Of a DNA stretch of 64,000 bases, positions 34,212-46,251 are shown in pieces. The translations under genes and the position numbers were made by a program. Location: NCBI RefSeq assembly GCF_022647325.1, contig NZ_CP071405.1:3844001-3908000 (forward strand). Direction: 5' to 3'. Below the pieces are notes generated by a model, which was not told where the DNA came from, ran no database searches, and saw nothing but the letters and a program-made list of their open reading frames with translations. Source of the stretch: Pantoea deleyi (GTDB lineage: Bacteria; Pseudomonadota; Gammaproteobacteria; Enterobacterales; Enterobacteriaceae). Each line of letters opens with the position of its first letter. The stretch's first letter is position 1.

Positions 34212-34268
34212 GTCAGATGACCGTCAGATCTGACGTTGGTATATCTGACCGCAGCCCATAAGTCAGAT
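34212..34268. repeat. Cluster of five GTCAGAT motifs
   Basis: GTCAGAT occurs at 34212, 34223 and 34262 and its complement ATCTGAC at 34228 and 34243. The copies at 34223 and 34228 form the palindrome CGTCAGATCTGACG. It lies between the glmZ control region and the tRNA-Pro repeats. No known regulator comes to mind. Confidence 0.5.
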
Positions 34269-34299
34269 ATTCAGGTGCACATACGCTTTTCAACAGACG

Positions 34300-34327
34300 A
34301 AAAAAAACCTGTCTTTTCAGACAGGTT
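34300..34327 (-). terminator. Terminator, repeat unit 1
   Basis: AACCTGTCT-GAAA-AGACAGGTT followed by a T-run on the minus strand; third and last of three identical terminators after the tRNA operon. Confidence 0.88.
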
Positions 34328-34461
34328 TCTAAAAATGGTCGGCGAGAGAGGATAACGCCGCTCTTCGAGCTGCGCCCTTCGGGCCGTTGCTGACGCAACG
34401 TTGTCTCGCTGCGCCCGGCGCAAACCTCCTCCGGAGGTTCTCATCCTCTTTTCAACAGACG

Positions 34462-34489
34462 AAAAAAAACCTGTCTTTTCAGACAGGTT
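34462..34489 (-). terminator. Terminator, repeat unit 2
   Basis: Same hairpin and T-run as in units 1 and 3, 162 bases from each. Confidence 0.88.
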
Positions 34490-34623
34490 TCTAAAAATGG
34501 TCGGCGAGAGAGGATAACGCCGCTCTTCGAGCAGCGCCCTTCGGGCCGTTGCTGACGCAACGTTGTCTCGCTGCGCCCGGCGCAAACCTCCTCCGGAGGT
34601 TCTCATCCTCTTTTCTGCAGACG

Positions 34624-34651
34624 AAAAAAAACCTGTCTTTTCAGACAGGTT
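34624..34651 (-). terminator. Terminator of the tRNA operon
   Basis: The 9-bp stem hairpin with T-run begins nine bases after the CCA end of tRNA-Pro; it is the first terminator that the transcript meets. Confidence 0.9.
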
Positions 34652-34659
34652 TCTAAAAA

Positions 34660-34736
34660 TGGTCGGCGAGAGAGGATTCGAACCTCCGACCCACTGGTCC
34701 CAAACCAGTTGCGCTACCAAGCTGCGCTACTCGCCG
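34660..34736 (-). tRNA. proM: tRNA-Pro (anticodon TGG)
   Basis: 77 nt with encoded CCA. 5' CGGCGAG pairs with CTCGCCG; the anticodon loop TTTGGGA gives TGG; GGTTCGAATCC is the T arm. Last gene of the operon argX-hisR-leuT-proM, as in E. coli. Its 3' 18 nt recur twice downstream in the 162-bp repeats. Confidence 0.97.
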
Positions 34737-34757
34737 ATTTTTTTAAACTGTTTTGCC

Positions 34758-34844
34758 TGGTGCGAAGAGAGGGACTTGAACCCTCACGTCCGTTAAGACA
34801 CTAACACCTGAAGCTAGCGCGTCTACCAATTCCGCCACCTTCGC
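34758..34844 (-). tRNA. leuT: tRNA-Leu (anticodon CAG)
   Basis: 87 nt with a long variable arm and encoded CCA. 5' GCGAAGG pairs with the 3' strand CTTCGC of the acceptor stem; anticodon CAG in CTTCAGGT. Third gene of the operon. Confidence 0.97.
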
Positions 34845-35269: not shown

Positions 35270-36010
35270 TCAGAGATCGCCTCGCCAGTGATAGCGCAAA
35301 TATTTCAGCAGTTTTAGCTGTCGGCGCAGCCGTGAGGGCTGACGAATAAGGCGATAGAGCCACTCCAGCCCCAGCCGCTGCCAGATTAGAGGCGCTCGCT
35401 TCACATGACCGGTGAAAACATCATAGGTGCCGCCTACGCCCATATAGAGGGCATCTGGCCAGTGCGCACGGCACGCCAGCATCAGCAGCTCCTGACGTGG
35501 CGATCCCAGCGCAACGGTTACCAGCTTTGCGCCGCTGGCCGCAATCCGGGCAAACAGTGCATCCTGTTCGGCTGGCGCAAAATAGCCATCCTGCGCCCCG
35601 ACAATATTCACGTTCCACTGACGACGCAGTTTAGCGCAGGTTTCATCCAGCACCTGCTGACGACCGCCGATCAAAAAGACCGGCGTCCCTTCCCGCCCGG
35701 CACGCTCCATCAGCGCTTCCCACAAATCCGCCCCCGCAATGCGCTGCACCCGCGCCTGGGGATACTTCTTGCGAATTGAGCGCACAATGCTGATGCCATC
35801 CGCGTAGGCATATTCTGCCTGGGTCAGCAGCGTGCGTAATCCCTCATCCCGCTCGGCGGTCAGGATCTTCTCCGCATTAATGGCCACTAAAATGCCGCTG
35901 CGCACCTGCTGCGGCGGCATCAGAAAACTCACCGCCGACGGCATGTTCTCGAAGCCATACAGCTCAACGCCACGAATCCGGTACTGCGGCGTTTCCGTTA
36001 ACTTTGTCAT
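35270..36010 (-). CDS. wecG: UDP-ManNAcA transferase WecG
   Basis: Adds N-acetyl-D-mannosaminuronic acid to GlcNAc-PP-undecaprenol, giving ECA lipid II, at the cytosolic face of the inner membrane. 246 residues (E. coli 246) of the WecG/TagA/CpsF family (GT26). Family motifs are [20 protein letters not shown] (about 67-86), [27 protein letters not shown] and [18 protein letters not shown]. The basic C-terminal tail ([18 protein letters not shown]) is typical membrane-attachment sequence. Last gene of the wec operon, 25 bases after wzyE. Confidence 0.96.
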
Positions 36011-36035: not shown

Positions 36036-37379
36036 TCAGAGCGGGCTGTGCACGACCCGCCTGCTGCGGTCGCGAATCAAACCTGCGCGATCCAGTAACC
36101 AGAAAAGTAATTTAGCCATGCCCAGGCACGCAGCAAAAATGATGCAGAAAAACACCACGCGAGAGCCGAACGCATCAAGACCTTCGCGTGCCAGCACGAT
36201 CATGTTAAACACCGCACCAAAACAGAAGCTTTGCAGGATGGCGCCGCTGTAGCGATTGGTCTCAAGACAGCCGCGCTGATAGATCGCATCAAAGGCTTTA
36301 ATAATCATCCCGACCGCGACGGCGCCGAGAGGAATCGCCCAGACGCCGCCCATCACCACCAGCGAGCCTATCAGCGTAGGTGAAATCGCCAGGCCAGAGT
36401 GGTTGTTCAGCACTTCCCAGGTAAAGTAGTTCGCGCTGTTCAGCACCGCCAGCGGCCGATCCGGCCAGAGCCAGGTCGGAATAAACACGTAAAAATCGCG
36501 CCACAGCGGAGCCAGTCCCTGAAACTCGATTCTGGCGTAGTTATCCAGCAGCAGGGCGAGGTTTTCCCACGGCGAAAACGTATCACGCGTCAGATAGAGG
36601 AAGGTATAGAACGCCTCATCGCCCATGACGTCCAGGTTATAGCGGCGCAGCGCCAGCCAGAACATCCCGGCAATCGCCATCACCCCGGCGGTTGCCAGCA
36701 TCCACAGCGTGATCCAGCCGCGGGTAATCCCGATAAACAGGAACAGGGCAAACGCGATAATGATATTGGCGCGAGTGCCCCCGACGAGCGCATAGGTCAG
36801 TAAACCAAAAGCCACGGTGACCACCAGGAACAGCAGCCAGTTGCGGCGCGTCGGGCGTAAAAAGTAGGGGATCAGCATCGCCGGAATAAAGAAGTAGAAA
36901 AATCGCTTAAGCGCCACGCCCGAGACTTCGCTGGAGAAGATCTGGTTGTAGGCGGTCAGGCGGAACAGCAGAAAGCCGTTGTGAATAAAGAACACTGTGA
37001 CGGTGCCCAGCGCCACCAGCGCCAGAATCACGCAGGTCAGATGGGTTTCGACGCGATTCATATGCAGCCAGGGTTTCGCCGGCGTGGCGCTGGCGGGCTT
37101 CAGGCGTATTTTATAGCTGACGTAATAGATGGCGTAAAACGCCGTGGCCGACAGCAGCGCCTCCAGCAGATTTTCAACCGGTACGACATCGACATTAAAG
37201 CGGAACACCAGCACCGAGGTCAGTGGAAAGCCGAAATAGAAAGTCAGCAGGAACAGCAGCGTGAAGAAGAGATGGAAGTTGAAACGGACACGCTTAAACT
37301 CCCGCCAGGTCAGGGTCAGGATAAACGCCAGCGACAGCAGATAGACCACCAGCAGGCCGCCAAACTGCATAAGACTCAT
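36036..37379 (-). CDS. wzyE: ECA polymerase WzyE
   Basis: Inner-membrane polymerase that joins ECA trisaccharide units at the periplasmic face. 447 residues (E. coli 450) with about 11 membrane helices. A large periplasmic loop ([20 protein letters not shown], about 300-320) matches the family. It overlaps wecF by four bases (ATGA) and is followed by wecG. Confidence 0.95.
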
Positions 37380-38443
37380 GATAACGCCCCTTCGCTGAGC
37401 TGTAACGCCGCCCGCCAGCCGGCGAGATAGCCCGGCGCAAAAAAGGCGATCGCCTGCTTATCGCAGCTCGCCAGCTGACGCCGCGCCTCCGCAATCACCG
37501 CAGGCGACAACGCATCTTCGCTGAACAGGACCGGCAGCTGCTGCTCAGCAACATCACGCCAGAAGGGATTTTTACGGGTCAGGACAAATGGCACACCGGC
37601 CTGAATCAGCAGACAGAGCGTTCCCACCCCCTGCTGACGTTCAAACATAAAATAACCGACATGGCAGCGCGCCAGCAGGGTCAGATAGTGCTCAAATGGC
37701 AGATTTTCACGGATCAGATTGACCTGCCCGTTCGGGAACAGCGTCTCTGCAGCGGCCTGAATCTGGCTGATATAAGCCTCGTTGCCCGGCGGATAGCCCA
37801 GCGGAACCTCGATGCACACCTGCTCGCCAAACTGCGCGCGAATCGCCTTCAGCCCTTCAATATGCCGGTTACTCGGATCGCCGGAGTTACCCAGCAGCAG
37901 CGTAAATGGCTCGGAAGGCGCAGACGCGACGGCGACGGCGGGCATGCGGGTCGGAAAATAGAGCAGTGAACCGGGCACGCGACGATGGCGCTGCTGATAG
38001 TGATGCAGGTCGCCACGGGTCGCAAAAACCTGAGCGACGCGGCCCTGGGCGATCCGGCGAATTTGATAGAACAGACGAAACTTCAGGCTGCGCGAATCTT
38101 CATAAAGATCGGCTCCCCAGACGTGCCAGTAGATCTGTGAGCGACGCAGTTTCCCACTGAGCAGCGCCAGCCAGATCCACGGGTTGAACTGACCGTGGCA
38201 GAAAAAGCGCTGCTGGCGATATCTGGCCCGCGCCACGACCGCCTGCGCCAGCGCTTTCTTGCTGGCAAAGCATTCGATCTGCAACGCGCTGAAGGGGGCC
38301 AGGCTTTCGGGCTGCTGCGTCACCACCATAAAATGGCGTGGCGAAGCCGCGGGCTGCTCAACGCTGAGGACATCGTTGAAAAAGCGCAGCACCGTCTGGT
38401 TGTGGTGAGGAATGTCCGATCCCAAAACGTGAATTAAAGTCAT
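37376..38443 (-). CDS. wecF: Fuc4NAc transferase WecF
   Basis: Adds 4-acetamido-4,6-dideoxygalactose from its dTDP form to ECA lipid II, giving lipid III. 355 residues, GT56 family. The N-terminus [20 protein letters not shown] and [20 protein letters not shown] (about 82-101) match E. coli. The start at 38443 overlaps the wzxE stop by four bases; the frame is open 12 codons further but lies inside wzxE. Confidence 0.95.
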
Positions 38444-39690
38444 TTTTTCCGGCAGTAAACAATAAAAGCGCCACAACACAGGGCAAAGTAAATCATATAG
38501 GTCAGCATATAAGCCTGTGCCGCTCCCGTCGCGCCATAGAGCGGGATCAGACAGCGCGATAACAGGGTCAGCAGCAGGAACTGGCTGATCTCTGTCAGAA
38601 CATAAAAGCGCAGCGAGGCTTTGGCGATCACCAGATATCCGAAAACATAGGCGCCCACTTTAAAAACATCGCCACACAACTGCCAGACAAAGAGATCGCG
38701 CATGCCGCGAAACGCCTCAGAGAACAGCAGGCTGATGGCGACATCGCGCAGCACCCAGACGCCAAAGCTGGCAACCGCGACGGCGGGCAGGACAAAGCGC
38801 AGCGCACGGCCAATCTCACGCGCGATGTCGCGTTTGTTGTCGAGTCGCGCCAGCGTCGGCAGCAGCCAGACGCTGAAGGTGGCAGTGATAAACTGCAGAT
38901 AGGCATCAGAAATGCTGGTGACGCCCTGCCATAATCCGACCTGCGCCCAGCCCTGCTGCTGCGCCAGCAGATTACGCATCAACACCCAGGCGACCGGCAG
39001 GGTGACGGCCGTAATCAGCGCCATCAGCGTATATTTCGCCAGATTCCCCGCCAGCTCAGGATGCCATTGCGGACGCAGCCAGCTCAGCGGCAGCGGCACG
39101 CGGCGTTTCAGCATGATCAGCGCCGGCAGCAGCAGTAAAGCCGGAACCAGCGCCAGCCCGATCAGTGCGCCCTGATAGCCACCGGTCCACCAGCAGACCA
39201 GATAGCCAGCCACACCGATCAGACTGCCGAAGATCAGCGCCAGCGCATTGCCACGCGCATCGCGATACCCCTTCAGCAGCGCCAGGGTAAAGTTGGCCCA
39301 GGCGATACCGAGCTGCAGAAAGGCCACCACGCGGATGACCCCCTGATAGTGGTCGTGACCGAACAGCGCGGTGCTGATGGGGCCCGCCGCCAGCAGAAAC
39401 AGCAGCGCCAGCACCCCGGAAAAGCCCATCACCAGGGTCGATGCCGTTCCCACCATCGCCCGCAGCCGGTCGGGCTGCTGCTGATACTGTGCGACATAGG
39501 TGGTGACGCCGTTGAAGATACCCGCGCCCGCCAGCACGCCCAGCACGGTAATCAGCTGACGGAAGTTCCCCGCCTGGCCGACGCCCTCGGGTCCGAAGCT
39601 GACCGCCAGCAGTTTAACGACCAGCAGACCGGCCACAATTTTTACCAGCGTGGACGATGCGGTCCACACTGAGGCTCTGGCAAGTGACAT
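38440..39690 (-). CDS. wzxE: ECA lipid III flippase WzxE
   Basis: MATE/MVF-like polysaccharide flippase of 416 residues (E. coli 416), about 12 membrane helices; moves undecaprenyl-linked ECA trisaccharide across the inner membrane. N-terminus [20 protein letters not shown] and [20 protein letters not shown] (about 31-50) match E. coli. Its ATG overlaps the wecE stop by one base (TGATG) and its stop overlaps wecF by four. Confidence 0.96.
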
Positions 39691-40820
39691 CAGGAGAAGA
39701 AGCTCAGCAGTGAGCTGATGACGGTGCTCTGGTTGTTATCTGACAGGTTATAGAACAGCGGCAGACGCAGCAGGCGTTCGCTTTCGCGGGTGGTAAAGCG
39801 ATCGTCACCGGCAAAGTGCGAGAATCGCTCACCGGCAGGCGAGCTGTGCAGCGGAATATAGTGGAACACCGTCAGAATCTCGGCCTCTTTCATCCAGTCG
39901 ATCAGCGCCTGGCGATCGTCCTGATCGCGCAGTTTGATATAGAACATATGCGCATTGTGTTCGCAGCTGGCCGGGATCGCCGGCAGGCTGATGCGGCCCT
40001 GAGCCGCCAGTGGCTGGAGAGCGTCATAATAGCGCTGCCAGATGCGTAACCGCTGCTGATTAATACGCTCAGCGGCCTCCAGCTGCGCCCAGAGATAGGC
40101 CGCCTGCAGGTCAGCCATCAGGTAGCTCGATCCCATATCGCGCCAGGTGTATTTATCCACCTGCCCGCGGAAGAACTGGCTGCGGTTGGTGCCTTTCTCA
40201 CGCACGATTTCGGCGCGCTCGACCAGACTGGCGTCGTTGATCAGCGTCGCCCCACCCTCACCGCCTGCGGTGTAGTTTTTGGTTTCGTGGAAGCTGAAGC
40301 AGCCGATATGGCCGATGGTGCCCAGCGCACGGCCTTTGTAGCGTGACATTACGCCCTGCGCCGCATCTTCAATCACAAACAGCTTATGCTTTGCCGCCAG
40401 CGCCATGATGGTGTCCATCTCGCAGGCCACGCCCGCATAATGCACCGGCACGATAGCGCGGGTTTTTTCCGTGATGGCCGCTTCGATCAGCGTCTCATCG
40501 ATATTCATGGTGTCCGGGCGCACATCAACAAACACAATCCGCGCGCCGCGCAGTACAAACGCATTGGCGGTAGAGACAAAGGTGTAGCTCGGCATGATCA
40601 CTTCGTCGCCAGGCTGCAGATCGATCAGCAGCGCCGCCATCTCCAGTGACGCGGTGCAGGAAGGCGTCAGCAGCACTTTTTTGCTGCCGAAACGCTGCTC
40701 CATCCACTGCTGGCAGCGACGGGTAAATCCGCCGTCACCGCAGAGCTTGCCGCTGTTCATTGCCGACTGCATATACTCGATTTCGGTGCCCACAACCGGA
40801 GGCGCATTAAATGGAATCAT
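39690..40820 (-). CDS. wecE: dTDP-4-keto-6-deoxyglucose aminotransferase WecE
   Basis: PLP enzyme that uses glutamate to make dTDP-4-amino-4,6-dideoxygalactose from the keto sugar. 376 residues (E. coli 376). The PLP lysine is in FSFHETKNYTAGGEGGA (about 175-191); the PLP-phosphate segment is PSCTASLEMAALL. The start at 40820 (MIPFNAPPVVGTEIEY) matches E. coli and overlaps wecD by 14 bases. Its substrate needs RffG and RffH activity, whose genes are only remnants here. Confidence 0.96.
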   Translation of the reverse strand: MIPFNAPPVVGTEIEYMQSAMNSGKLCGDGGFTRRCQQWMEQRFGSKKVLLTPSCTASLEMAALLIDLQPGDEVIMPSYTFVSTANAFVLRGARIVFVDVRPDTMNIDETLIEAAITEKTRAIVPVHYAGVACEMDTIMALAAKHKLFVIEDAAQGVMSRYKGRALGTIGHIGCFSFHETKNYTAGGEGGATLINDASLVERAEIVREKGTNRSQFFRGQVDKYTWRDMGSSYLMADLQAAYLWAQLEAAERINQQRLRIWQRYYDALQPLAAQGRISLPAIPASCEHNAHMFYIKLRDQDDRQALIDWMKEAEILTVFHYIPLHSSPAGERFSHFAGDDRFTTRESERLLRLPLFYNLSDNNQSTVISSLLSFFS

Positions 40821-41514
40821 GACCTTTCCTGTAAAACCAGTAGGCGGTGCTGTCGAGCCGGGCACCGCTGCGTAAATAGAGGCGCATTGCCGTGAGATTG
40901 CTGAGCTGGGTGGCAATCCGCAGCTGGTTCAGCTGCCGTACCCGCGCCCAGTCAGCCGCAGCCAGCAGCAGCCGCTGACCCAGCCCCTGGCCCTGCGCAG
41001 CAGGCAGCACGCCCAGCAGGCCAACACGGGCATCGCCATCGACCGCGCGAAGCGAAACAAAGCCCTGAAGCTGCCCTGCGGCATCGCTCGCCACCAGGCA
41101 CTGATCGTCAAATGAACCGCGCACCGCATTTTCAATCCACTGCGCGTAAAAGCGACCGCTGGCGTCCGGCGCATACCAGGGCGCACGGAAACGGCTCTGG
41201 CTGAACAGCGCAGACGCCGCCTCGCGCAACAGCGGGATCTGCGACTCGCGGGCAATGCGAATCCCCGCCTGCCGTTCCGTCTGCGCGACCGCCAGCGTCA
41301 GATCCGCCTCCCCTTCTGCCAGCTGAAACTGATGCTGCTGCAGCGTGTCGATCAGCGCGGTCTCGCTGGCCGCCACTTTCATCTGCATCAGCGCACAGGG
41401 ATGACGCAGCGCCTGCTCCAGTGGGGTGTCACCTTCGGCTTCCAGCCGCACGGTCTCAACACCGAAGAACGCGCTCTCCCAGCTAAGGGGATGAATATTG
41501 ACGTGGATGGGCAT
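40807..41514 (-). CDS. wecD: dTDP-fucosamine acetyltransferase WecD
   Basis: GNAT-fold enzyme that acetylates dTDP-Fuc4N with acetyl-CoA. 235 residues (E. coli 224). The acetyl-CoA loop is LLGVLPAAQGQGLGQRLLLA (about 168-187), followed by LRIATQLSNLTAMRLYLRSG. The N-terminal part HVNIHPLSWESAFFGVETVR matches less well. Its start codon lies within the reading frame of the rffH remnant, as wecD closely follows rffH in E. coli. Confidence 0.94.
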   Translation of the reverse strand: MPIHVNIHPLSWESAFFGVETVRLEAEGDTPLEQALRHPCALMQMKVAASETALIDTLQQHQFQLAEGEADLTLAVAQTERQAGIRIARESQIPLLREAASALFSQSRFRAPWYAPDASGRFYAQWIENAVRGSFDDQCLVASDAAGQLQGFVSLRAVDGDARVGLLGVLPAAQGQGLGQRLLLAAADWARVRQLNQLRIATQLSNLTAMRLYLRSGARLDSTAYWFYRKGHDSI

Positions 41515-41602
41515 GTAATAAATCCAGCAGATATTGGCCGTAGCCGATTTTTGTCAGCGCTTCGCCCGCGGCGCGCAGCCAGCTGTAACGCCAGGCGGCC
41601 AT
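41483..41602 (-). pseudogene. rffH: rffH remnant (C-terminal end)
   Basis: An open frame of 39 codons, MAAWRYSWLRAAGEALTK then IGYGQYLLDLLHAHPRQY, corresponds to the C-terminal 35 or so residues of glucose-1-phosphate thymidylyltransferase RffH (E. coli ends TGYGQYLLELLRARPRQY). The nucleotidyltransferase domain is wholly missing. Its stop codon lies 30 bases inside wecD. The frame has stayed open, so the deletion may be fairly recent or the tail kept for wecD translation. Confidence 0.82.
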
Positions 41603-41615
41603 GTGTAGCCGCCCT

Positions 41616-41684
41616 TTAAGCGGAGAAGCGCACCCGTGCCAAACCGATAAAACCGGCACCGCCGGTGATCAGAAAGCACTTCAT
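41616..41684 (-). pseudogene. rffG: rffG remnant (N-terminal end)
   Basis: Starting at an ATG that overlaps the wecC stop (ATGA), 22 codons read [20 protein letters not shown] then SA and stop. E. coli dTDP-glucose dehydratase RffG begins [20 protein letters not shown]. Only the Rossmann GxxGxxG segment survives; the rest is deleted up to the rffH tail. Confidence 0.82.
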
Positions 41685-42940
41685 CGCCAGACACCTTTGG
41701 TGTCGACAATCCAGTTCTGCTGCACGCAGGTGGCGTCGATGGCGCGGAAGGCGCGATGATCGACCAGCATCACCAGAATATCCGCCTGCGCCAGCGCCTG
41801 CTCAGCCGACACCAGTTCCGCATGGTCGGCGAGCGCGTCCGTCAGCTGCGCGATATGGGGTTCCACCACCCAGGTTGGGCCACTGTGCCACTCGGCGATG
41901 TTCCGGGCTACGCCAATGGCCGGGCTTTCGCGCAGGTCATCGATATTGGGTTTAAAAGCCAGGCCAAAACAGGCGATGGTGATATCGCTGGCGCGCTTGC
42001 CGGTCTGCGTCAGGCAGTCTGCCAGCGCCGTTTTTACCTGGTCCAGCACCCACTGCGGCTTGGCGTCATTGACCTCACGCGCGGTGCGGATCAGGCGAGC
42101 GAGTTCAGGATTCTGCGCCACGATGAACCAGGGATCGACCGCGATACAGTGGCCACCGACGCCCGGCCCCGGCTGCAGGATATTGACGCGCGGATGGCGA
42201 TTCGCCAGCGCAATCAGCTCCCAGACGTTAATGCCCTGGTCGGCGCAAATCAGCGACAGCTCATTTGCAAAGGCGATATTCACGTCACGGAAACTGTTTT
42301 CAGTCAGTTTACACATCTCGGCGGTACGGGCGTTGGTCTCCACACATTCGCCTTTTAAAAACAGCCGGTAGAGTTCGCTGGCGCGGGCGGAACAGGCGGG
42401 CGTCATGCCGCCGATAACCCGGTCGTTGTTAATCAGCTCAACCATGACCTGACCCGGCAGCACGCGCTCCGGGCAGTAGGCAATATACACGTCCGGCGCT
42501 TCACTCTGCTGTGGAAAGCGCAGGTCGGGCCGTGCCGCAGCCAGCCAGTCGGCCATCTGTTCGGTACTGCCCACCGGTGACGTTGACTCCAGAATCACCA
42601 GATCGCCTTTTTTCAGCACCGGCGCAATCGACTCTGCCGCAGCTTTCACAAAACGCAGATCGGGCTGATGTCCATCTTTGAACGGTGTCGGGACGGCAAT
42701 CAGAAAGGCGTCAGCGGCTTCCGGCTGGGTGGTGGCACGCAGATCGCCGCGCGTGACGGCGGCATGAACGACCTGATCCAGATCGGGTTCCACGATGTGG
42801 ATCGCGCCACGATTGATGGTTTCTACGGCGCGGGCGTTGATATCCACCCCCACCACTTTTTTTCCCTTTGAGGCAAAAACGGCTGCCGTCGGCAGCCCAA
42901 TGTATCCCAGTCCAATCACGGAGATGGTTTGAAAACTCAT
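41681..42940 (-). CDS. wecC: UDP-ManNAc dehydrogenase WecC
   Basis: NAD-dependent four-electron oxidation of UDP-N-acetylmannosamine to the uronic acid used by WecG. 419 residues (E. coli 420). N-terminal NAD site [20 protein letters not shown] (about 9-28), catalytic Cys region [20 protein letters not shown] (about 318-337), and [20 protein letters not shown] in between. It overlaps wecB by four bases; downstream the operon runs into the rffG/rffH scar instead of the intact genes. Confidence 0.96.
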
Positions 42941-44067
42941 AATTCGGCTCGATTATCTTTTAAGGCTTGTAAAATGCGACCACAGGCTTTGCCATCGCCA
43001 TAGGGGTTGTGGGCGTGGCTCATCGCCTGCCAGGCCTCGTCGTCGCGCAGTAATTCATCGACACTCGCCACGATTCTGGCGATATCGGTTCCCACCAGTC
43101 TGACGGTACCCGCGTCGACCGCTTCGGGGCGTTCGGTGGTGTCACGCATCACCAGCACTGGTTTACCCAGCGAAGGCGCCTCCTCCTGAATACCGCCGGA
43201 ATCCGTGAGGATCAGCCAGGCACGGTTCATCAGCCAGACAAACGGCAGATACTCCTGAGGTTCGATCAGGATGATATTCTCTATGCCGCTGAGGATGCGG
43301 TTGACCGGCTCGCTGACGTTGGGGTTGAGATGCACCGGATAGACGATCTGCGCCTCCGGATGCTGGCGGGCAATCTGCGCCAGCGCGCTGCAGATGCGTT
43401 CAAAGCCGCCGCCAAAACTCTCACGACGATGGCCCGTAACCAGCACCAGTTTCTTCGCGGGATCGAGGAACGGATAGCGCGCCGCCAGCTCCGCATTCAG
43501 GCTGGTGTCATCCAGCACCCGGTCACGCACCCACAGCAGGGCATCAATGACCGTGTTGCCGGTTACGACAATACGCACATCCGGCAGATTCTCCTGCAGC
43601 AGATTCTGGCGCGAGCGGGCGGTAGGCGTGAAGTGCAGGCGGGCAAGATGGCCGGTGAGCTTGCGGTTCCCCTCTTCCGGCCACGGCGACGCGAGATCGC
43701 CGGTGCGCAGCCCCGCTTCCACATGGCCGACGGGGATCTGCTGATAAAAGGCCGCCAGGCTCGCCGCCAGCGTGGTAGTGGTGTCACCATGCACCAGCAC
43801 GATGTCCGGCTTAAAGTCGAGCAGAACGGTTTTCATCCCCTCCAGAATACGGCAGGTGATCTCGGTCAGTCCCTGTTCGGGACGCATGATATTGAGGTCA
43901 TAGTCCGGCTGCAGACGGAACAGACGCAGCACCTGGTCGAGCATTTCGCGATGCTGGGCCGTGACGCAGAGTCGCGACTCAAACGCGGGATCCTGCGCCA
44001 GCGCCTGAACCAGCGGGGCCATTTTAATGGCTTCCGGACGAGTACCAAATACGGTCAGAACTTTCAC
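42937..44067 (-). CDS. wecB: UDP-GlcNAc 2-epimerase WecB
   Basis: Non-hydrolysing epimerase making UDP-ManNAc. 376 residues, the E. coli length, if the GTG at 44067 is the start ([23 protein letters not shown] upstream). An ATG six codons earlier is an alternative. Motifs are [18 protein letters not shown] (about 92-109), [19 protein letters not shown] and [20 protein letters not shown] (about 286-305). It starts ten bases after wzzE and overlaps wecC. Confidence 0.95.
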
Positions 44068-44077
44068 ACTGTTTCTC

Positions 44078-45160
44078 TCAATCATGCGTGTCTGACATAG
44101 GACGCGGACGACGTGCCAGCGCCACACCCGCGCCGGTTAATGCGCCAACCGCACCCCACAGAATCATCATGAACAGACGTCGCGGACTGTCACGGGAAAC
44201 CGGCTCTTCCGGCGTACGCAGATAACGGTACGTCTGGAACTGGCTGTTCAGTTTTGGCCCGGCCTGCAGCGTCGTCAGCATTGCCCTGTTTTGATCATAG
44301 CTGATATCAAACGCCGGACCGGTCGCGCGCAGGGTATCCAGCTGCCCCTGCAGAACCGGCTGCCCGAGCAGGAAGAGATCGCTGTCCGCCAGGTTCTCAC
44401 CCGCTTCACGCGTCTGTTTCTGACTGATGCCCTGCTGGCTGGCGATCTTCAGCGCCTGCTCAAGCCGATGCTGCTGGCGCTGGAAGACGGCATTCGCCAC
44501 ATCTTCCTGACGTTTTACCTGCGCCTGCAGCTGATTCGTGCGTGCCTGCCAGGCCCCTTTCAGCTCATCGTTCAGGTGACGCGCGGCGCGCTCACTGGCG
44601 TAAGCGATATACTGGCGCAGCAGATTGTTGGCGTCGCCCGCGGTTTCGGCTTTAAGTCTGACGTTGTCGGGCAGGTTATGCGCCGCGTCGGCGGGGGTGA
44701 AGAGAATATTGCCGATCATATCGTCGAGCAGAGCCGCATCGTTGTGCGCATTGCCCGTTTTGCGGCTTTTGTAGTAGTCGGTCTGCTGCCAGAACTCGCG
44801 ACGCGTATCCCAGGAGGCGAGCTGCATCGTGAACTCCTGATAGACCTCATCCATCACGGTCGGTGACGGCGCCGCCAGGGTTAAGGCGTTGTTGCGTGCA
44901 TCCAGGTTACTCAGGAACTGCTGTTGCGCATAGTAGGAACCCAGCATGTTGACCGTGGGTCGATCGGTGATCGCCGTGGTGCTCCAGACCTGTTTCATCA
45001 GCAGCGTGGCGAGCCAGGCGCCCAGCGCAAACAGCAGCGCCAGCCCGACAATCCAGCGCTTACCGCGCCATAAACGGCAGCCAAAGCTGCGTATATCCAG
45101 TTCGTTGTCCACAACGTCAGAAGGCATGCCAGCGTTATCCTTTATCAGCATCGGGTTCAT
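44078..45160 (-). CDS. wzzE: ECA chain length regulator WzzE
   Basis: Polysaccharide co-polymerase that sets ECA chain length. 360 residues (E. coli 348). Two membrane helices, near residues 37-55 and 333-350, flank a periplasmic helical domain (coiled coil around 190-260). [20 protein letters not shown] (about 77-96) and [17 protein letters not shown] before the second helix are family marks. The chosen ATG overlaps the wecA stop (ATGA); an internal Met at residue 12 has AAGGA upstream and is a possible true start. Confidence 0.94.
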
Positions 45161-46251
45161 TTATTTTTGGCTTCGCGGTAATGGCTCAGACGACGCTTGA
45201 TGCGCCGCACACGTCGCGCCACACGCCACGCATGTTTCAGGCAGTAGCCGTAAACCATAAAAGCGCCCAGGAACAGCAGCAGCATCACCCATTCCGGAAT
45301 GAAAGCCAGATATTCACCCAGCACACCGATACCGGCCAGGATCGCCGCTGCCACGGTAATCAGTACAAAGGCCTGACGCGAGCTGAAACCGGCTCGCATA
45401 ATCAGATGGTGGATGTGCTGGCGGTCAGCCGAAAACGGACTCATGCCTTTGCGCAGGCGACGATACATGATCGCCACCATGTCCATCAGGGGAATGGCGA
45501 TCAGCCACAGCGCGGTCACGGGGGTAATGGGATGACTCAGACCCTGGGTGGTTTCCAGCAGAATCCAGATAATGGTGAAGCCGATCATGGTGCTGCCGGC
45601 ATCGCCCATAAAGACTTTAAAACGACGACCGAGGAAGCCGAGATTGAGCAGGATATAGGGCAGCGTGGCGGCGATCATCGCAAAACACCACATCGCGAGG
45701 CTGGTCTGGCCGTCGAAGTAGAGGATGATGCCCATCGCGGCAAAGGTGACTGAAGAGAGCCCGCCCAGCAGACCGTCAATGCCGTCCACCATGTTGAAGG
45801 CGTTAATCGCGGCCCAGACGGCAAACAGCGTCAGCACATAGCCGAAGGGCCCGACGATCAGCTCGATCGGACCGACGATGAACCCCAGGCTGAGCAGGTA
45901 GAGTTTGGCACCAAACATCATCACCAGCGCGACAATGGCCTGCACGACCGCACGAATTTTAACGCTGATGTCGAAACGGTCATCCAGCGCCCCGACCAGC
46001 ACCAGCACACCGGCACAGCCCAGATAGAGCGGCGCATGGGGCAGATAGTAGTTGGTAATAGCGAACGTGAAGCAGATACCTGCAAACACAGAAATGCCGC
46101 CGACCAACGGAATCGCGCCATGGTGGCGTTTACGTGAGTTAGGCTTATCCACTAAACCAATTTTTTTAGCTGCTTTTCGAGCAAAAAAGAGGAAAGCCAA
46201 AGAAAAGAGAAAAATTAATCCAAGCTCAGTACTCATAGTGAGTAAATTCAC
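45157..46251 (-). CDS. wecA: UDP-GlcNAc:undecaprenyl-phosphate GlcNAc-1-P transferase
   Basis: Inner-membrane enzyme that starts ECA (and many O-antigens) by making GlcNAc-PP-undecaprenol. 364 residues (E. coli 367), about 11 membrane helices. Catalytic motifs are GALDDRFDISVKIR (about 88-101), NAFNMVDGIDGLLGG (about 149-163), KVFMGDAGSTMIG and the DRQHIHHLIMRAGF loop. It starts with GTG at MNLLTMSTELGL, as E. coli wecA does. First gene of the wec operon, downstream of rho. Confidence 0.97.
   Translation of the reverse strand: MNLLTMSTELGLIFLFSLAFLFFARKAAKKIGLVDKPNSRKRHHGAIPLVGGISVFAGICFTFAITNYYLPHAPLYLGCAGVLVLVGALDDRFDISVKIRAVVQAIVALVMMFGAKLYLLSLGFIVGPIELIVGPFGYVLTLFAVWAAINAFNMVDGIDGLLGGLSSVTFAAMGIILYFDGQTSLAMWCFAMIAATLPYILLNLGFLGRRFKVFMGDAGSTMIGFTIIWILLETTQGLSHPITPVTALWLIAIPLMDMVAIMYRRLRKGMSPFSADRQHIHHLIMRAGFSSRQAFVLITVAAAILAGIGVLGEYLAFIPEWVMLLLFLGAFMVYGYCLKHAWRVARRVRRIKRRLSHYREAKNK

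Follow-up and report, generated by a model that had tools for sequence, protein, structure and literature searches.

Loss of rffG and rffH from the enterobacterial common antigen operon of Pantoea deleyi and its probable pairing with the rml genes of the O-antigen locus

In Enterobacterales, the enterobacterial common antigen (ECA) is customarily viewed as the constant coat and the O-antigen as the variable one. The window analysed here (64,000 nucleotides of Pantoea deleyi, contig NZ_CP071405.1, positions 3,844,001 to 3,908,000) carries an ECA operon in which rffG and rffH were not found at their place between wecC and wecD, raising the question of what would supply the step that requires their product. 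The genes wecA, wzzE, wecB to wecG, wzxE and wzyE are collinear and all above a curated cut-off. On the minus strand these are wecA, GlcNAc-1-P transferase (45157..46251, TIGR02380); wzzE, ECA chain-length protein (44078..45160, NF008645); wecB, UDP-GlcNAc 2-epimerase (42937..44127 as the listed ORF, TIGR00236); wecC, UDP-ManNAc dehydrogenase (41681..42940, NF008286, 790 bits); wecD (rffC), dTDP-Fuc4N acetyltransferase (40807..41514, NF008212, 303 bits); wecE (rffA), dTDP-4-keto-6-deoxyglucose transaminase (39690..40820, TIGR02379, 712 bits), the step requiring the product of the missing genes; wzxE, lipid III flippase (38440..39690, NF011679); wecF, Fuc4NAc transferase (37376..38479 as the listed ORF, its real start probably lying further in, NF052570); wzyE, ECA polymerase (36036..37379, NF002820); and wecG, ManNAcA transferase (35270..36010, NF002980). 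The order is that of the operon of E. coli K-12 (NC_000913; wecA-wzzE-wecB-wecC-..-wecD-wecE-wzxE-wecF-wzyE-wecG), whereas rffG-rffH are reduced to a scar in the window. Downstream of the operon, an ORF at 34213-34796 contains near-identical repeated segments (SPTIFRNLSEKTGFFSS...).

All that is left of rffGH between wecC and wecD is an rffG stub, a filler and an rffH tail, on the minus strand. The original prediction had read these remnants as a deletion scar, and the ORFs, a tblastn search and the spacing of wecC and wecD (166 bases in the window versus 1945 in the intact sister G042; G-numbers denote the compared genomes and G000 that of the window) bear this out. The stub ORF (41616..41684, from the ORF listing) has the proposed 22 codons, of which only about 20 come from rffG, its initial 43 bases being identical to rffG of G042; the remainder belongs to a filler of ~28 bases (about 41597..41624, placed by alignment with relatives) whose origin is neither rffG nor rffH. 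The tail ORF (41483..41602, from the ORF list and tblastn) matches residues 251-293 of E. coli RffH (53%, E 1.3e-7) and is indeed an rffH end. Its 39 amino acids, however, are not simply the last 39 codons of the gene as had been stated: they are counted from an in-frame ATG in the filler, 15 bases that relatives retain are missing, and the normal stop is gone (TAA to TCA), the tail terminating three codons on at TAG. Both translational junctions are kept, as predicted, the stub start overlapping the wecC stop via ATGA and the tail overlapping the wecD start. An assembly error as the source of the scar is unlikely, since separately sequenced species (G019, G034 and G049 at both junctions, G006 at the right one) carry the same junction sites and related filler. 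The deletion is thus true and was correctly read; taken alone it is an ordinary loss through redundancy, and its interest is raised above that of the first finding by the reciprocal pattern and the cross-species scars described below.

A search of the whole P. deleyi genome (4.68 Mb, 4 contigs) revealed a single RmlB (501 bits, C1:1453979-1454998) and a single RmlA (528 bits, C1:1455998-1456852) above curated cut-offs, on the same contig C1 (3.99 Mb) as the scar, which lies near C1:3885500. The rmlA and rmlB genes expected elsewhere in the genome are therefore present, as sole copies over cut-off and in one locus, and the case of a genome without rml genes, which would have spoken for a dead pathway, does not apply. 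The gene order is galF-galE-rmlB-rmlD-rmlA-rmlC, two further ORFs (at least one a glycosyltransferase, the second without a family match), wzm, wzt and gnd; the Rml proteins pass their cut-offs, and the names wzm and wzt rest on matches that fall under the cut-off of the galactan families. This arrangement, rmlBDAC between galF and gnd beside export genes, is that of an O-antigen rml locus. Since the only over-cut-off RmlB and RmlA sit there, ECA should depend on the O-antigen locus, which supports the proposal that its synthesis is tied to a separate surface polysaccharide. Barring some enzyme that scores under cut-off, the substrate of WecE would be available only via the rmlBA pathway, and the strain probably borrows the O-antigen rml copies for its ECA.

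The relation between the two loci was followed through Pantoea as drawn by GTDB, at one genome per species. Sequence identity linked 35 of the 60 genomes with wecD to named loci, mostly under the name Pantoea and in a few cases Mixta, Erwinia or Enterobacter; part of the plasmid of the P. deleyi genome came closest, at 84%, to plasmids of P. agglomerans, in a comparison that may lack near records. The gene wecD was found in 60 of 61 genomes, the remaining one (G043, 1.4 Mb) having neither wecD nor an RmlB over cut-off. The spacing of wecC and wecD falls into two classes, 17-228 bases in 28 of the 60 genomes (rffGH lost) and 1941-1958 bases in the other 32 (intact). In all 28 deleted genomes rmlB and rmlA are present at another site (with a frameshift in one rmlB); a second rmlB is missing in 21 of the 32 intact genomes and present in 11, and none of the 60 is without both rffGH and rml. 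The single genome that would contradict the rule, if its frameshift is real, is G012, in which rffGH is gone and the sole rmlB is frameshifted near codon 262 (L218, G012:C1:2761500-2766500). Two of the 11 intact genomes with a second rmlB carry a frameshift in rffG (G024) or rffH (G060), as would be expected of genes turning useless, and G060, in which rhlB is also broken, may contain sequencing errors. Among 20 genomes chosen for a closer look at the position of rmlB, 9 are deleted and have gnd located. In 8 of these 9, rmlB and gnd are no more than 15 kb apart; in G006 the two genes are on two contigs, each close to the contig start. The original prediction had proposed comparing the wec locus of sister species, and this comparison found intact rffGH in the sister G042, whose O-antigen site, the same as that of P. 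deleyi, is free of rml, its ORFs reading as wzm, wzt, glf and glycosyltransferases. The O-antigen site of G007 carries what reads as a mannose-type cluster; G057 and G059 have ORFs of almost the same sizes at this site. An in-frame fusion of an rffG start (about 22 codons) with an rffH end (about 63 codons) was observed in G014 (L060), where the deletion is apparently young.

Fisher's test of the association gave p-values of 3e-8 in the genus and 3e-11 in the family; it ignores kinship and, given the empty class with neither gene set, tests only one thing, the deficit of genomes with both sets not being independent evidence. Kinship was taken into account with a tree of 60 tips built from rho, trxA, rhlB, gppA and rep, over which the rffGH state changed at least 20 times. 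In 18 independent pairs rml changed in the opposite direction in 11.3 (mean), in the same direction in 0 and was unchanged in 6.7 (median p-value 0.001). As rep is incomplete in the analysed stretch of most intact genomes, the tests were rerun without it (59 rows, G041 with its broken genes left out), and the outcome of the pair test was similar. Deleted and intact genomes occur as sisters in G000/G042, G011/G007, G034/G059, G019/G002, G055/G056, G010/G037 and G003/G005. The loss does not follow immediately upon redundancy: a second rmlB persists alongside rffGH in 11 of the 32 intact Pantoea genomes, and most E. coli genomes retain rffGH.

A deletion in a biosynthetic operon could also be the initial step of ECA decay, with the remaining operon still to go, and the wec frameshifts in six deleted genomes (G011, G020, G032, G035, G036 and G054) as opposed to only one intact genome (G009) speak in that direction. 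Against this reading, dN/dS of wecD-wecG is 0.015-0.12 in 6 of 7 deleted/intact sister pairs, like that of the intact pairs tried, and wecB-wecG as a whole are under purifying selection (dN/dS at most 0.12) in the seven pairs, with the exception of wecD and wecE of G011, both of which are frameshifted. Moreover, two of the six frameshifted genomes, G020 and G032, are also hit in rho or gppA, and their wec frameshifts are therefore probably sequencing errors, and RmlB and RmlA accompany the deletion in 28 of 28 genomes. A dead pathway is accordingly very improbable as a general explanation. Because the other ECA proteins fit curated families and purifying selection is seen in 6 of 7 pairs, the pathway looks alive; judged by its genes, ECA is probably made in most deleted genomes, with decay possibly under way in a few. 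A comparison of dN/dS for relaxed selection on redundant rffGH found no clear increase. A frameshift-split wecD next to lost rffGH was noted at L057 (G011) and L082 (G036), where either ECA decay or sequencing error is possible.

The scar of the window turned out to be shared by species that are not its sisters. Both junctions lie at the identical place in G000, G019, G034 and G049, whereas G006, which has lost most of the stub, has the right junction only, and a related filler of ~28 bases is found in all five. The fillers agree pairwise at 12-23 of 28 bases, that of G000 agreeing with the others at only about half of its positions; shuffles of one partner gave p-values of 0.00005-0.02, the weakest pairs being G000-G006 (0.02) and G000-G049 (0.006), and when G000 was compared with all four others at once, 2 of 20000 shuffles did equally well. 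These values are somewhat flattering, as an alignment was used to delimit the fillers. Two sources of the filler were considered. A retained island of rffGH is unsupported at the sensitivity used, G049 alone giving p-values of 0.03-0.04 against two of three references. A repeated element is likewise unsupported, the consensus (at most 3 mismatches) being found only in scars among 61 genomes; this pattern recovers only G019 and G049 of the five scars, and an equally diverged source would escape it. The flanking genes reject the five carriers as one clade (p-AU 5.9e-90; 4.8e-5 without rep), the scar groups having been named after the trees were inspected, and a derived scar allele in species that do not form one clade is one of the features of a trans-species polymorphism. 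A second scar type, recognized by eye in G010, G018, G035 and G036, is not confined to one clade either (p-value 5.5e-5) and has a Shine-Dalgarno-like AGGAGC now upstream of wecD; a third type, likewise recognized by eye, in G021 and G033 is also not one clade (p-value 2.7e-6). Both of these scars are short, and convergence is possible for them. In-frame deletions favoured for translational coupling were considered as well and rejected, as about 5 of 13 types are in frame, near the one-in-three expectation; in-frame rffG-rffH mini-fusions were seen by eye in G014, G032, G021, G033, G055 and the clade with 21-base scars.

Several histories could produce such a distribution. Through redundancy, rffGH may have been lost repeatedly and independently, without old alleles and with the shared scars convergent, which would suit the about 13 scar types that by eye differ in length and sequence, the rffG and rffH frameshifts of G024 and G060, which have a second rmlB (that of G060 possibly being a sequencing error) and the distance of the G000 filler, with its weakest pair at a p-value of 0.02. 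Convergence, however, would have to produce five scars with one right junction, four of them with one left junction as well, and a non-rffGH filler of ~28 bases whose consensus occurs nowhere else in the 61 genomes, and, by eye, similar sharing in G010/G018/G035/G036 and in Escherichia; we consider it unlikely. The claim that rffGH was removed in one event fits the scar itself and stands to that extent, yet the event was not private to the lineage of the window, given the many losses in genus, family and Escherichia and the scar in non-sister species. Alternatively, scar alleles might have spread among species by homologous recombination in place of an old polymorphism, in line with the absence of a single clade of carriers. 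In 200-base windows around the scar, though, all 20 for G000 group with species and not with scar class, and those of G019 and G034 mostly group with intact sisters, stub and tail included, with exceptions in G019 (three in wecB, one in wecE) and G034 (two) and some ties. The strong divergence of the fillers argues against a recent spread, and transfer, while a possibility to be taken seriously, is rather doubtful. Finally, intact rffGH could have been regained through recombination into ancestrally scarred operons. The intact G042 shares the lost rffH stop with G000, as expected of a once-useless tail; a tree built from rffGH of the 32 intact genomes, on the other hand, by eye largely tracks species, so that regain from distant donors is unsupported and regain in general seems quite improbable. 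Shared scars together with species-like flanks are best accounted for by old alleles that coexist and recombine.

The pattern extends beyond Pantoea. The GTDB family was sampled with a single genome for each of 89 genera. Of these, 57 have wecD, and exactly these 57 also give an RmlB match (E below 1e-90), which lies solely at wec in 26, solely elsewhere in 26, at both places in 5 and at neither in 0, where elsewhere stands for any non-wec position and does not imply membership of an O-antigen locus; two poor genomes with partial matches, G201 and G223, belong to this set. A sample of the whole order was too wide to use, with wecD in only 13 of 119 genomes. Among 80 named loci, which overlap the genus set, rffG and rffH are both present between wecC and wecD in 31, neither in 44 and rffG alone in 5. 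The latter five (L180, L181, L182, L184 and L185), where rffH is missing, are all from Pectobacterium.

Of 5426 E. coli genomes, 5375 gave a match. The intact stretch was covered to 80% or more in 5257 of them, and the stretch in which wecC is joined to rffC was covered to 80% or more at a single site in 115, so that about 115 of 5375 are without rffGH. Both wec alleles hence occur within this species; the Pantoea sample comprises one genome per species. Seven of the 115 scars were read, all 40 bases long, and in the five genomes whose O-antigen locus was read (ST2747, O139, two O102 and one O2/O50) rfbB and rfbA lie beside galF in 5 of 5. Six Escherichia loci come from a collection of one genome per GTDB species. 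Three of them, from E. whittamii (L164), E. coli E69 (L165) and Escherichia sp. E1V33 (L167), carry a scar with a filler alike by eye, and the remaining three are intact (L163, L166 and L168). Scar sharing across species thus seems to recur in Escherichia.

Taken together, it is highly probable that the scar is a remnant of rffG-rffH, that RmlBA of the O-antigen locus feeds ECA and that wec alleles, seemingly old, are matched to the O-antigen type. RmlA and RmlB of that locus would supply dTDP-glucose and dTDP-4-keto-6-deoxyglucose for ECA, with WecE and RmlC/D sharing one pool, and deletion of rffGH would be tolerated only as long as the O-antigen carries rml. Deleted and intact wec operons would coexist, each paired with an O-antigen type by selection matching both loci, and would persist together because O-antigen loci are exchanged; both forms look like long-standing alleles that extend across species boundaries. 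More tentatively, presence or absence of rffGH might be a long-lived trans-species polymorphism maintained through epistasis with the distant O-antigen locus, where frequency-dependent turnover of types with or without rml would preserve both wec alleles across speciation, in Pantoea and independently in Escherichia; we regard this as a reasonable possibility short of an even chance. If true, the "invariant" common antigen would bear a concealed record of O-antigen switches.

If ECA does depend on rmlBA elsewhere (in the O-antigen locus where examined) in roughly half of the lineages sampled, O-antigen switches or rml mutations would consequently affect both coats; a wec operon without rffGH should then not be called dead. 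Related bacteria appear to have repeated the swap of rffGH for rml many times, repeatedly linking seemingly separate coats, and the rffGH/rml pair offers a tractable system, found in nature, in which two unlinked loci seemingly evolve in a matched way.

Redundancy of these enzymes has been described before. According to a review (PMC7439462, citing Marolda and Valvano 1995), RmlA/RmlB of ECA and O-antigen are at least partially redundant, that is, the same enzymes and the same O-antigen/ECA intermediate as here; there both copies are present, whereas in the window genome one is deleted and the other is the sole source. A study of E. coli EC958 (PMC3789825) reports that rmlA and rmlB mutants retain most O-antigen, which its authors suggest might be due to RffH/RffG. 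One locus covers for the other in both cases, in the opposite direction and in a laboratory mutant in EC958, and by natural loss in the window strain. Work on Salmonella made single and double deletions of the paralogs rffG and rfbB (PMC12136496). The published experiment found is replacement of RmlAB by RffGH, the converse being stated just as redundancy. A limited literature search, with subscription papers mostly outside its reach, found no report of natural rffGH loss or of the reciprocal pattern, and its novelty is provisional. A wec operon in which wecC is directly followed by rffC, like that of the window, is carried by a 97-kb plasmid of Kosakonia cowanii (NZ_CP019447), with a different scar of 9 bases between the genes. 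This plasmid locus (L043, p888-76-2) contains, besides the wec genes without rffGH, rho, trxA, rep, hem and cyaA genes.
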